From positions 62,001 to 126,000 of the forward strand of contig JAJCXZ010000026.1 of NCBI GenBank assembly GCA_029263175.1: 64,000 bases of DNA. The letters are read 5' to 3'. Shown here piece after piece: positions 4,411-10,819 of the stretch; within the stretch, counting starts at the first letter, position 1, and the number at the start of each line of letters is the position of its first letter. The DNA is from Acidimicrobiales bacterium. GTDB taxonomy: Bacteria > Actinomycetota > Acidimicrobiia > Acidimicrobiales > Aldehydirespiratoraceae. The position numbers and the translations under genes were made by a program. Under the pieces are notes generated by a model. That model was not told the origin of the DNA and ran no database searches. It was given only the letters and a program-made list of their open reading frames with translations.

Positions 4411-4445
4411 CAGTTGCAACGTTTGCTCCGAGGTGAGCTGCAACT
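4411..4445. repeat. Hairpin repeat, copy 1 (between convergent tetR and ychF ends)
   Basis: Arms AGTTGCA (4412-4418) and TGCAACT (4439-4445) enclose the 14-base sequence TTTGCTCCGAGGTG (4422-4435). The same 14 bases form the loop of a second hairpin at 7581-7620. It starts 3 bases after the tetR stop and its last base is the first base of the ychF stop codon. It could act as a two-way terminator, but there is no T-tract. Confidence 0.6.
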
Positions 4446-5518
4446 CAGACGTTGAAGCGGAACTCCATCACGTCGCCGTCCTGGGCGGTGTAGTCCTTGC
4501 CTTCGGAACGGACCTTGCCGACGTCGCGGGCTGCGGACCAGGAACCTGCCTCGAGAAGCTCGTCCCACTGGATCGTCTCGGCTCGGATGAAGCCGCGCTG
4601 GAAGTCGGTATGGATGACGCCCGCACATTCAGGAGCACTGGAGCCGGCACGAAACGTCCAGGCTCGGCTCTCCTTCTCACCGGTGGTCAAGAACGTGCGC
4701 AGCCCCAGCATGTGGTATGCGCTCTTCAGGAAACGCGGAACGGCGCCGTCGCCCAGGCCGAGCGCCTCGAGCATCTCGACCCGCTCATCCTCTTCCATGA
4801 GTGCTGCCTCCGCCTCGAGCTGTACTGACAGCACCACGACCTCAGCGCCATCGAGCTCGTCACGGACAGGCGCCGCGATCTCATCTTCCTGTCCGATCTG
4901 GTCTTCGCCGATGTTGAGCACAGCCATGACCGGCTTGTTGGTGAGGAAGAAATACTCCTTCAGATCGGCGCGATCGTCGGCGCGAAGGTTTGCCCGGTAG
5001 AGCGGTGTGCCTTCACTGAGGTGATCGACGCAAGTTTGCAGGAGCGCGGCCATGGGCTTGAGGGCCGGATCGCCCTTCATCGATCGCTGGGTCTTGTCGA
5101 GCGCCTTCTCGGCGGCGGCGAGATCCGCCAACGCCAGCTCGATCTCCACAACGCGCAAGTGTTCCAGAGGATCGCACGGGCCGGGCACGTCGTCGTCGGG
5201 GACCGCCCGAAGCACGAAGACGATGGCGTCGACCTCACGAATATGGGACAGGAACGCATTGCCGAGGCCTTCGCCCTGGCTCGCTCCCTCGACAAGACCG
5301 CCGATGTCGGTGAATTGCACGGCAGCATGCACGACGTTCTTGCTCTCGCTCATGACGGCGAGTTGATCGAGCCGATGGTCAGGGACCTTGGCCACACCGA
5401 CATTCGGGTCCGTGGTTGCGAAGGCGTAGGGCGCCGCGTGCGCACCGCCGCCGGCCAGTGCGTTGTAGAGAGAACTCTTGCCGGCATTGGGGAGGCCGAC
5501 GAACCCGAAACGTTCCAT
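4445..5518 (-). CDS. ychF: Redox/ribosome-associated ATPase YchF (OLA1 family)
   Basis: A 357-residue Obg-family P-loop protein of typical length. The order is the G1 motif GLPNAGKSSLYNAL near the N-terminus, a G3-type motif (FTDIGGLVEGAS), a helical coiled-coil insertion, and a C-terminal TGS domain ending in DYTAQDGDVMEFRFNV, a YchF hallmark. Family members bind ATP better than GTP and associate with ribosomes, with roles in stress response. The start at 5518 gives the conserved MERFGFVGLPN; the long upstream in-frame extension is rejected. A TAGCCT hexamer (5534-5529) lies 10 bases before the start. Confidence 0.96.
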   Translation of the reverse strand: MERFGFVGLPNAGKSSLYNALAGGGAHAAPYAFATTDPNVGVAKVPDHRLDQLAVMSESKNVVHAAVQFTDIGGLVEGASQGEGLGNAFLSHIREVDAIVFVLRAVPDDDVPGPCDPLEHLRVVEIELALADLAAAEKALDKTQRSMKGDPALKPMAALLQTCVDHLSEGTPLYRANLRADDRADLKEYFFLTNKPVMAVLNIGEDQIGQEDEIAAPVRDELDGAEVVVLSVQLEAEAALMEEDERVEMLEALGLGDGAVPRFLKSAYHMLGLRTFLTTGEKESRAWTFRAGSSAPECAGVIHTDFQRGFIRAETIQWDELLEAGSWSAARDVGKVRSEGKDYTAQDGDVMEFRFNV

Positions 5519-5528
5519 AACCCGGTCG

Positions 5529-5534
5529 AGGCTA
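5529..5534 (-). promoter_or_regulatory. -10 hexamer of ychF
   Basis: TAGCCT on the minus strand, 10 bases before the ychF ATG, predicting a leader of only about 3-4 bases. Confidence 0.45.
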
Positions 5535-5550
5535 TCGACCGACCTCGGAC

Positions 5551-5556
5551 TACCGT
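5551..5556 (+). promoter_or_regulatory. -10 hexamer of the 5563 gene, leaderless
   Basis: TACCGT with a 6-base gap to the GTG at 5563. It sits back to back with the ychF promoter in a 44-base divergent gap. Confidence 0.5.
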
Positions 5557-5562
5557 TGAGGC

Positions 5563-5910
5563 GTGACCGAAGCGATAAAGACGCAAGGGGCCGACTCCTC
5601 CGAAGCAGTGAGCGAACTGGTCGGAGCGGAGCGAGCGTTCTCGAAGTCTCTCGCCGTATCCGCGATTCGCTGCACATTCACCTACGTCTTGATTCCGTTC
5701 GTGTTCCCGCTCGTGGGTTGGGGTGCTGGCGTCGGCCCGTGGATCGGTCTGCCGATCGGAATCGCGGCGATCATCGCCAACGTTGTGAGCATTCGCCGGT
5801 TCCACCGAAGCGACCACAAGTGGAAGTGGCACATGACTGCGATCAACGTCGCCATCATCGGCTTGCTCGTCATCCTCGTCGCCATCGACTCCGCCGAACT
5901 CCTGGGATAG
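5563..5910 (+). CDS. Small integral membrane protein of unknown function
   Basis: 115 residues beginning at a GTG. A charged N-terminal 25 residues is followed by three predicted membrane segments at about 32-52, 58-75 and 93-110. The loop between the second and third is rich in histidine, lysine and arginine (RRFHRSDHKWKWH). I do not recognise a family. Coding status is supported by the spacing from the -10 hexamer and by strong G/C bias at wobble positions. It is followed 28 bases later by the DUF885 gene. Confidence 0.7.
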   Translation: MTEAIKTQGADSSEAVSELVGAERAFSKSLAVSAIRCTFTYVLIPFVFPLVGWGAGVGPWIGLPIGIAAIIANVVSIRRFHRSDHKWKWHMTAINVAIIGLLVILVAIDSAELLG

Positions 5911-8829: not shown

Positions 8830-9408
8830 TCAGCTTTCGATGGGTGCGACGCCAGGCACCCGAGACGGACGAGCAAAGACCTCATCGAGCATCGGCCGGA
8901 ACTCTTCGAGCTGCATCACCGGATACTCCGGGTCAAAGCAGTTCTGGTCGTAGTTGTGGCAGAAGTCGACGCATCGGTCGTAGTGGGGCGAATCGAGGTA
9001 GCGCTCCCGTGCATCTCGATCACCACCGAGATGGTGGAAGTAGTAGTAGCCCTGGAAAACCCCGTGGTGCTTGATCACCCAATGGGTTTCGTCGTCGACA
9101 TAGGGGGCGAGCAAAGCGGCCGCGGCTTCCGAGTGATTCTCCGGTGCGAAGCCGTCGGCCACATCGTGCAGCAGCGCGCCCACGATCATGTCGACGGACT
9201 CGCTGTTGCGAAACGCCCGGGTGCCCGATTGAAGCGAATGCGAGTAGCGGTCGGTTTGATAGCCGAGCGTGTCGCCCTTCAGCAGTCCGAGCATGTTGCA
9301 GAGGTTGTCGACGAGATTCGAACGAGCGTGTTCCTCGAAGGCGGGGCCCAACATCTCGTAGTCGGCTTGATCGCCGTACTGCATCTCGGTCCAGTTCACG
9401 ATGCGCAT
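8830..9408 (-). CDS. HD-domain oxygenase/hydrolase, PhnZ-like
   Basis: 192 residues. The likely metal ligands are H57 (YSHSLQ), H81-D82 (LLHDVADG), H92, H114/H115 (KHHGVFQGYYYFHHLG) and D154 (NYDQNCFDP). This pattern, especially the KHHGVFQGYY stretch, matches the HD-domain group that includes the mixed-valent diiron oxygenases PhnZ and TmpB, which cleave C-P bonds of hydroxy-phosphonates. Function on phosphonates is inference; no other phosphonate gene is adjacent. The start at 9408 is preferred over upstream ATGs because TACACT lies 7 bases before it. Confidence 0.75.
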   Translation of the reverse strand: MRIVNWTEMQYGDQADYEMLGPAFEEHARSNLVDNLCNMLGLLKGDTLGYQTDRYSHSLQSGTRAFRNSESVDMIVGALLHDVADGFAPENHSEAAAALLAPYVDDETHWVIKHHGVFQGYYYFHHLGGDRDARERYLDSPHYDRCVDFCHNYDQNCFDPEYPVMQLEEFRPMLDEVFARPSRVPGVAPIES

Positions 9409-9415
9409 GCCGCGG

Positions 9416-9421
9416 AGTGTA
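9416..9421 (-). promoter_or_regulatory. -10 hexamer of the PhnZ-like gene, leaderless
   Basis: TACACT on the minus strand, 7-base gap to the ATG at 9408. Confidence 0.5.
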
Positions 9422-9434
9422 GGCGGCGGGGCGG

Positions 9435-9440
9435 TACGGT
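9435..9440 (+). promoter_or_regulatory. -10 hexamer of the SDR gene, leaderless
   Basis: TACGGT with an 8-base gap to the ATG at 9449, divergent from the PhnZ-like promoter 14 bases away. Confidence 0.45.
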
Positions 9441-9448
9441 CGCCCGCG

Positions 9449-10279
9449 ATGTCCTCCTCCCGCTTTCTCGTCGCCGGCGCCGGCGACGTCGGCCTCACCC
9501 TCGCCACCGTGTTGTCGGAAGCAGGGTTGGAGGTGTCAACGCTGAACCGGTCCGGACGTTCTGTCGAAGGGGCGACCCCGCTGGTCGCCGATCTCCGCGA
9601 GCTGATGTCACTCAGGGCCGCTATCGGCGAGCGGGAATTCGATGTCGTTGTCATCACGACTGCGCCGGCACGCCGATCCGACGGTGCCTATCGCGCCGCC
9701 TATGTCGACGGACCGGCCAATCTGCTTGCCACCCTCTCCCAGCACCCCGCCCGCGCCGTGCTCACGTCGACGACGGGCGTCTATGGCGATGACGACGGAC
9801 GCTGGATCACTGCGTCGACGCCGCCAAACCCAACTCGTTCCACCGCCGAGATTGTGCTCGACGGGGAGCACCGGCTCGCGGGCAACGTGCCCACCACCGT
9901 CGTCCGAGCGGCAGGGATCTATGGCCCGGGCCGCACCCACCTCATCGATCGGGTGAGAGACGGTCAGATCACAGTCGACGGCTCCACCGAGTGGACCAAC
10001 CGCATTCATCGAGACGACCTCGTGAGTGCCCTGGCCCTCGCAGCCGTGCATCCGTCGCCTCCGGCCCTGGCAATCGCCGTCGACGACGAGCCCGCGCCGC
10101 ACCATGTCGTCACCGCCTGGCTGGCCCGGGAGCTCGGTGTCGAGCCGCCAGCCACGGTCGGGGCCGTCTCGGCGACAACGGGCAAGCGGTGTCGGAACAG
10201 TGAGCTCAAGGACATGGGCTGGGAACCCGCGTACCCAAGCTTTCGCGAGGGATACCGGTCGGTCCTCGCTAGCATTTGA
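9449..10279 (+). CDS. NAD(P)-dependent epimerase/dehydratase-like SDR protein
   Basis: 276 residues with an N-terminal Rossmann motif VAGAGDVGLTLA and an extended-SDR fold resembling YeeZ-type proteins. VLTSTTGVYGDDDG is the usual serine/threonine strand leading to a VYG motif, and VVRAAGIYGPGR is the conserved substrate-side segment. The canonical YxxxK pair is not obvious, so catalysis may be absent or altered. In-frame ATG at 9401 rejected on promoter spacing. Four bases separate its stop from the bL37 gene, which has its own hexamer inside the end of this gene. Confidence 0.8.
   Translation: MSSSRFLVAGAGDVGLTLATVLSEAGLEVSTLNRSGRSVEGATPLVADLRELMSLRAAIGEREFDVVVITTAPARRSDGAYRAAYVDGPANLLATLSQHPARAVLTSTTGVYGDDDGRWITASTPPNPTRSTAEIVLDGEHRLAGNVPTTVVRAAGIYGPGRTHLIDRVRDGQITVDGSTEWTNRIHRDDLVSALALAAVHPSPPALAIAVDDEPAPHHVVTAWLARELGVEPPATVGAVSATTGKRCRNSELKDMGWEPAYPSFREGYRSVLASI
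10270..10275 (+). promoter_or_regulatory. -10 hexamer of the bL37 gene, leaderless
   Basis: TAGCAT inside the end of the SDR gene, 8-base gap to the ATG at 10284. Confidence 0.45.
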
Positions 10280-10283
10280 AGCC

Positions 10284-10373
10284 ATGTCGAAGCGCACGAG
10301 TAAGAAGAAGGCGAAGGTTCGCCGCAGCAAGGCCAACCACGGCCGCAAGCCCAACCTGGGCCGCAACAGCTAG
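10284..10373 (+). CDS. Small ribosomal protein bL37 homologue (29 aa)
   Basis: A 29-residue, strongly basic protein: a lysine/arginine-rich start (MSKRTSKKKAKVRRSK) followed by ANHGRKPNLGRNS. The segment SKANHGRKPN closely matches SKANHGKRPN in the mycobacterial large-subunit protein bL37, first seen in ribosome structures. It would bind 23S rRNA. Such genes are usually missed because of their size. It has its own likely leaderless promoter and is followed by a hairpin terminator at 10400. Homology is recalled from memory, so confidence is good but not complete. Confidence 0.78.
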   Translation: MSKRTSKKKAKVRRSKANHGRKPNLGRNS

Positions 10374-10399: not shown

Positions 10400-10428
10400 A
10401 CGCCGCTGGATTCATCCGGCGGCGTTTC
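10400..10428 (+). terminator. Intrinsic terminator after bL37
   Basis: ACGCCGCTGGAT (10400-10411) pairs with ATCCGGCGGCGT (10414-10425), one G-T pair, followed by a short TTT. Twenty-six bases after the bL37 stop. Confidence 0.6.
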
Positions 10429-10459: not shown

Positions 10460-10819
10460 GTGCGGCTGATCTTTGATGGGGACTGTGGCTTCTGCACGAA
10501 GTCGGCGCGCTGGATCGAGGCGCGTCTGCCCGACGACGTCGACGTCACGCCCTGGCAACTGCTCGACCTCGAGGAGTTCGGACTCAGCCGACGACAGGTC
10601 ACGGTTGCCGCGTGGTGGATCGATGACGCCGGTGCCACTCATCGCGGCCACGAGGCCATCGGGCGAGCCCTGATCGCTGCAGGCGGAGCGTGGTCGCCCA
10701 TCGGGCGCTCGTTTCTGATCCCACCAGGCAGCTGGATCGCTCGACCGAGTTATGCGGTGATCGCCCGCTATCGCCACAAGCTTCCAGGGGCATCCGAGGC
10801 GTGCGGCCTGCCGGAGTAG
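10460..10819 (+). CDS. DCC-family thiol-disulfide oxidoreductase-like protein (DUF393)
   Basis: 119 residues. The family signature FDGDCGFCTKSARW at residues 4-17 gives the DxDCxxC motif, and the rest is the short thioredoxin-like fold of DUF393. These proteins are thought to act on disulfides, but substrates are unknown. The GTG at 10460 is preceded at 6 bases by CAGACT, a plausible variant -10. It stands between the bL37 terminator and the acyl-CoA synthetase genes. Confidence 0.88.
   Translation: MRLIFDGDCGFCTKSARWIEARLPDDVDVTPWQLLDLEEFGLSRRQVTVAAWWIDDAGATHRGHEAIGRALIAAGGAWSPIGRSFLIPPGSWIARPSYAVIARYRHKLPGASEACGLPE

Follow-up and report, generated by a model that had tools for sequence, protein, structure and literature searches.

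A Conserved bL37-Type Ribosomal Protein Gene of Acidimicrobiia, Probably Expressed from a Leaderless mRNA

The bL37 Gene and Its Product

The window, i.e., the whole stretch of 64,000 nucleotides that was analyzed, carries on its plus strand a short gene that starts with an ATG at 10284, ends with a TAG at 10371-10373 and encodes a product of 29 residues (MSKRTSKKKAKVRRSKANHGRKPNLGRNS). Its surroundings are described in Table 1. The decapeptide SKANHGRKPN, on which the initial annotation had based its assignment to the ribosomal protein bL37, is indeed present and occupies residues 15-24. Alignment with mycobacterial bL37, which had been suggested as a check, led to bL37-type chains with weak scores: a phmmer search of PDB sequences (E up to 10) matched five distinct sequences with E values of 0.033 to 0.2 (best, 0.033), four of which carry the name bL37 in one or more entries, the remaining one being labeled just "peptide". 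No match reached an E value of 0.001 or better; the matched chains are only 22-24 residues long, and the matches are weak because the sequences are short.

The sole NCBIfam match of the peptide is NF047428 (ribo_Myco_bL37; E 1.1e-6), and Pfam gave no match for it. Its score of 28.7 bits is 1.3 bits short of the curated cut-off of 30 and, therefore, the window copy is not filed under this model. Searching the whole genome (4.4 Mb) with NF047428 gave a single match at E <= 1, located at the bL37 locus (E 6.3e-5, 26.3 bits). Furthermore, a profile built from Acidimicrobiia peptides retrieved, at E 9e-5 to 2e-3, bL37 from a family (f56) that we call mycobacteria-like because its peptides nearly match the solved chains of mycobacteria. 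Two other families, f34 and f39, have intermediate forms. Overall, the product has the ANHG-x-x-PN core, the basic N-terminal part and the length (about 24-29 residues) of the broad bL37 family, and it is connected to experimentally seen bL37 by the PDB matches (E 0.03-0.2), NF047428 and the Acidimicrobiia profile.

The initial annotation also considered the gene too short for normal gene prediction. This is plausible: longer frames overlap it on both strands, and mechanical ORF calling reports instead an ORF of 115 aa that begins with a GTG at 10026. Since the window copy scores too low for NF047428 as curated, bL37 genes of this type may often escape annotation.

Table 1. Features at and around the bL37 locus (positions in the window unless a contig is given).
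Feature	Position	Strand	Basis or remark
bL37 gene, 29 codons and TAG stop	10284..10373	+	reading frame, PDB and NCBIfam matches, conservation, selection
C-terminal tail codons (LGRNS), past the point where the solved bL37 chains stop	10356..10370	+	PDB chains, alignment, count among representatives
-10 element TAGCAT (TANNNT), separated by 8 nt from the ATG and overlapping the end of the upstream gene	10270..10275	+	sequence; conserved spacing in relatives
Small hairpin past the stop codon	10379..10395	+	folding
Possible terminator: hairpin of 11 pairs, T run poor	10400..10425	+	folding; relatives
Upstream neighbor, NAD-dependent epimerase/dehydratase family (PF01370), ending 4 nt before the bL37 ATG	9401..10279	+	
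Downstream neighbor, DCC1-like thiol-disulfide oxidoreductase (PF04134)	10460..10819	+	
YchF-type GTPase (PF06071, PF01926), open frame from stop to stop; bL37-side end of the translation-gene block	4445..5677	-	
bS22 (COX24_C-type; locus L247), GTG start, TAGCGT 8 nt upstream	C26:47935-48018	same as bL37	outside the window, 14 kb before its start

Occurrence in Acidimicrobiia and Beyond

An ortholog was found in 54 of the 61 genomes of the order, including the one studied here: 34 of 37 in the same family and 20 of 24 elsewhere. This occurrence and the single NF047428 match in the genome indicate that the identity as bL37 is not due to chance. In a sample of 296 genomes of the phylum, 68 matched at E <= 0.1. 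The class accounts for 35 genomes of this sample, 33 of them with bL37 if the genomes without a match, 208 of which come in addition to those listed, are ordered by kinship, as they appear to be. The two sets overlap by six genomes, which makes 90 genomes of the class in total. The bL37 frame is present in 81 of them, with one copy each at the thresholds used; a lack of conservation of the frame in related genomes, named by the initial annotation as the result that would speak against it, was thus looked for and not observed. The nine other genomes gave no credible copy, a lax profile search yielding only weak matches in two cases (E 0.3 and 1.1), which were not counted.

Among the best 80 of 239 matches, the relatives are mostly labeled Acidimicrobiales, Acidimicrobiaceae, Acidimicrobiia, Microthrix or Microthrixaceae, and some only "Actinomycetota" or "bacterium"; these names assign the window to the class Acidimicrobiia. 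Two metagenome assemblies labeled Bifidobacterium breve (loci L118 and L124) carry a bL37 of the Acidimicrobiia type (MSQRTQKKKANVRRKKANHGRKPNAGRNS); their label looks wrong. Outside the class, the phylum sample contains 35 genomes with a match at E <= 0.1. Of the 27 that were retrieved, 24 have a bL37-like peptide. Papers are cited here by PMC number from extracts of their text; one of them reports that bL37 is restricted to high-G+C actinobacteria (PMC5876184). The present work shows it in a deep class, Acidimicrobiia, with 81 of 90 genomes carrying it.

Promoter and Predicted Leaderless Expression

The upstream regions were compared in a set of 164 loci, of which 144 are distinct and 143 extend 80 nt upstream; 103 representatives were left after dropping loci at least 70% identical over 40 nt upstream. 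The promoter hexamer proposed by the initial annotation is well conserved: TANNNT lies 6-10 nt ahead of the start codon in 94 of these 103 non-redundant loci, although a strict sigma-70 scan found no site at the window bL37. The surrounding positions predict such a motif in 2.2%, and 200 mononucleotide shuffles gave a mean of 4.3 and a maximum of 11. The promoter consensus of the representatives, anchored on the motif, is CCGnTAgCcT. The nine exceptions comprise seven loci with a Shine-Dalgarno-like sequence and two with TANNNT at 11 nt. Shine-Dalgarno-like sequences precede the start codon in only one of the 94 TANNNT loci compared to seven of the nine others (Fisher p ~1e-8, a value that is only indicative since the loci are related), and none precedes the window ATG.

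Of the 45 long ORFs of the window, 10 have a signal of this kind at a 5′ start codon (5 if only the first start is considered), compared to none of 442 internal start codons. This agrees with published work in which over 20% of the genes of actinobacteria are leaderless (PMC3160421). The signal described there is a TANNNT that precedes the start codon by about 10-12 bp, with a peak near 12. The first T of the motif is found 12-16 nt upstream in the TANNNT loci of bL37, and the window gene shows the combination of TANNNT and no Shine-Dalgarno sequence that characterizes leaderless genes; the distance of 14 nt in the window, compared to the published peak, would leave room for a leader of a few nucleotides. 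The -10 motif of Mycobacterium tuberculosis is centered 7-12 bp before the transcription start (PMC3898074). That of the window is centered about 11 bp before the ATG, so that a leader would be absent or a few nucleotides long. Since the spacing of TANNNT is conserved and a Shine-Dalgarno sequence is lacking, the bL37 mRNA is probably leaderless, with a predicted start at or very near the ATG.

Alternatively, read-through from the epimerase gene could account for most of the expression of the bL37 ortholog, the TANNNT being minor or unused. The short distance and common strand of the two genes would fit, but the spacing of TANNNT is kept while the upstream sequence varies widely among relatives, and read-through would leave an ATG devoid of a Shine-Dalgarno sequence. 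We therefore consider this unlikely. It is very likely that the locus holds a bL37 ortholog of Acidimicrobiia with its own TANNNT promoter and a leaderless or nearly leaderless mRNA.

One small group of loci (L117, L126, L129, L130 and L135) has a TANNNT about 20 nt upstream and a GGAGG-like sequence before the start codon, from which it seems that bL37 has gained a leader in these relatives. This Shine-Dalgarno clade is represented by L117, L130 and L135 among the 103 loci.

On the downstream side, the folding of the 70 nt after the stop codon is equaled by only 5 of 200 shuffles (z -2.6). The terminator claimed by the initial annotation remains unproven: the larger hairpin exists, but a terminator scan found none on the bL37 strand and, in 102 of the 103 representatives, stems are hardly commoner right after bL37 (37/102) than 300 nt further on (32/102). 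A conserved terminator was rejected on this absence of enrichment in relatives.

Neighborhood and Linkage to bS22

The initial annotation placed the gene far from other ribosomal genes. This holds for uL2 and uL30, which are on other contigs (C93 and C29, respectively), but not for bS22, the second small ribosomal protein of actinobacteria, whose gene lies 24 kb upstream of bL37 on the same contig and the same strand. A search with PF08213 detected bS22 in all of the 20 class genomes tested, above the cut-off in 17. The two genes are 5-25 kb apart (within 26 kb) in 11 of these genomes, on the same strand in 10 of them; they are on separate contigs in eight others and 1.5 Mb apart in a single-contig genome (G038).

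Eight of the 11 linked regions were compared, using only complete rows for two genomes (G000 and G010). All eight have translation genes (ksgA, metG, rsmI and others) between bS22 and bL37, in the common order GHMP kinase (IspE), RrnaAD (KsgA), TatD, methionyl-tRNA synthetase, TP_methylase (RsmI), DUF192 and YchF GTPase, in which the names beyond those of Pfam are our interpretation of the Pfam matches. As exceptions, DUF192 and YchF were not detected in G058, and the first two genes share one open frame in G047; the methionyl-tRNA synthetase matches are of just 26-30% in four of the eight regions. An earlier paper describes rpfB-ksgA-ispE beside tatD as a conserved arrangement of Actinobacteria (PMC6009663).

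The start codon of bS22 is also preceded by TANNNT in 18 of the 20 class genomes (accepted spacing 5-11 nt, observed spacing 8-11 nt), or 17 of 20 at 5-10 nt. The motif was found in none of the six mycobacteria-like genomes and none of the seven f34 genomes that were read; in the six mycobacteria-like genomes, bS22 was devoid both of TANNNT and of the Shine-Dalgarno patterns that were searched. A strict coupling between the leader types of bS22 and bL37 was ruled out, since the clade with a Shine-Dalgarno sequence before bL37 keeps the TANNNT of bS22 (2/2 read, L267 and L268). It is also contradicted in family f39, where bL37 has TANNNT in 3/3 while bS22, judged by eye, appears to be Shine-Dalgarno-led or is unclear.

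In M. tuberculosis, by contrast with the leaderless mRNAs predicted here for bL37 and bS22, none of the ribosomal proteins is reported to be leaderless (PMC3898074, extract), although that set may omit these two. In the extracts of open-licence literature that we found on bL37, bS22 and leaderless genes of Acidimicrobiia, no leaderless bL37 or bS22 gene is described. A connection between bS22 and leaderless translation has been proposed (PMC6582356, extract), and the expression predicted here makes it testable. One could imagine, with little confidence, that bS22 and bL37 of Acidimicrobiia form a frequently linked pair, both leaderless, which flanks the ksgA-metG-rsmI-ychF block and whose production, if ribosomes carrying bS22 and bL37 translate leaderless messages differently, would read out the composition of the ribosome and thereby tune itself. 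This predicted leaderless and often linked arrangement, found across the class, is of more interest than the bL37 gene itself.

The linkage also bears on the nature of the product. A small basic nucleic-acid-binding peptide, or a secreted antimicrobial one, might merely resemble bL37: the peptide is highly basic, and bL37 of Cutibacterium acnes inhibits two staphylococci in disc tests (PMC10085706, extract), a result that is no evidence of secretion. However, we saw no signal sequence by eye, nearly all genomes of the class have the gene in single copy, its ANHGxxPN core is conserved, and roughly half of the genomes compared show linkage to translation genes, all of which makes such a peptide very improbable. 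A ribosomal protein of bL37 type is the preferred reading.

Selection and Form of the Protein

In an ungapped comparison of 30 loci of the family anchored on the ATG, mean divergence is 18% within the ORF but 62-72% in its flanks. Divergence reaches 0.33 at third codon positions compared to 0.10 and 0.11 at the others, and pS (0.42) is about four times pN (0.11) in the bL37 frame, the ratio being reversed in the two other frames. The bL37 frame is under purifying selection. A spurious ORF, conserved because of an RNA element or an overlapping gene, has a negligible probability despite the short length and the longer overlapping frames, since third positions differ most, pS exceeds pN in the bL37 frame only and an Rfam scan of the window at gathering scores was empty. 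A tRNA scan of the window was empty as well. Taken as a whole, sequence, profile, conservation and selection bear out the 29-residue bL37 gene: judging from these sequence comparisons, it is a genuine, conserved ortholog or relative in Acidimicrobiia of the large-subunit protein bL37, with predicted binding to the ribosome.

Ten residues (S2, K3, K16, A17, N18, G20, P23, N24, G26 and R27) are invariant in the first-aligned 41 distinct peptides. In two other members of the class, PL replaces the PN of the core (KRPLVGRR in L162 and KKPLCGRR in L159). Gly-Arg follows PNx in 102 of the 103 class representatives, whereas the solved bL37 chains stop at most one residue past PN and lack this tail. 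Outside the class, a Gly-Arg tail is found in 9 of 10 f34 loci and a Gly-Lys tail in 3 of 3 f39 loci, while the peptides of the mycobacteria-like family, f63 and f51 terminate at PNA, PNS or RRPA. The presence of the tail in f34 and f39 suggests that the short mycobacterial form may be derived.

Family f51 (L168, L169, L171, L176, L199 and L200), with genomes of about 8-10 Mb, has a bL37-like peptide that terminates in GR(A/S)NHGRRPA. Two of the six f51 genomes searched have a second bL37-like gene, whose product terminates in ANHGSRPQS or ANHGRRPQC; such pairs are possibly paralogs with separate roles.

Proposed Role in the Ribosome

The pocket and contacts of bL37 have been described for mycobacteria and Cutibacterium (PMC5876184 and PMC10085706, extracts). 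By homology, the basic N-terminal part of the Acidimicrobiia protein would form a helix, and its ANHGRKPN loop would fill the 23S rRNA pocket made of H39, H40, H72 and H89, beside the tip of the 5S rRNA and near the peptidyl transferase center. The protein could thus act as a structural pin that stabilizes the region near H89 and 5S rRNA, the additional LGRNS tail taking the C-terminus further along the rRNA. Its transcription would proceed from its own TANNNT promoter, with a transcript starting at or within a few nucleotides of the ATG and translated as a leaderless message.

Comparison with Known Systems

The N-terminal extension of uL30 in Borrelia (PMC10618245) and CLaSP in Coxiella (PMC13392368) are reported, in the extracts, to occupy the same rRNA pocket. 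Unlike in Acidimicrobiia, neither is a separate bL37 gene. Replacement of bL37 by an extended uL30, as in Borrelia, is unsupported in the nine class genomes lacking bL37: in the eight that could be read, uL30 has a start codon 20-32 residues before the matched motif, much like in bL37-bearing genomes, four of them having in addition a farther in-frame start (38-53 residues), so that longer starts are possible from the DNA and the comparison is a weak one; the ninth (G226) was unreadable by the pattern used.

The bL37 of C. acnes (PDB 8crx chain V) likewise has a basic N-terminus, its core being ANHGKRPN, but it has 24 residues and no Gly-Arg tail. The closest comparison is with the bL37 of Mycobacterium smegmatis and M. 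tuberculosis (e.g., PDB 5o60 chain 3, 7kgb chain v; NF047428), which is likewise encoded by a single short gene and has a basic N-terminus and an ANHG(K/R)(K/R)PN core. Three differences separate the two systems: the Acidimicrobiia protein has 29 residues with an xGRNS tail compared to 24 in mycobacteria; its mRNA is predicted to be leaderless, whereas GGAGG is found in 5/5 mycobacteria-like loci; and bS22 is often linked to bL37 in Acidimicrobiia, whereas a distance of at least about 0.9 Mb separates the two genes in the three mycobacteria-like genomes that have both on one contig.
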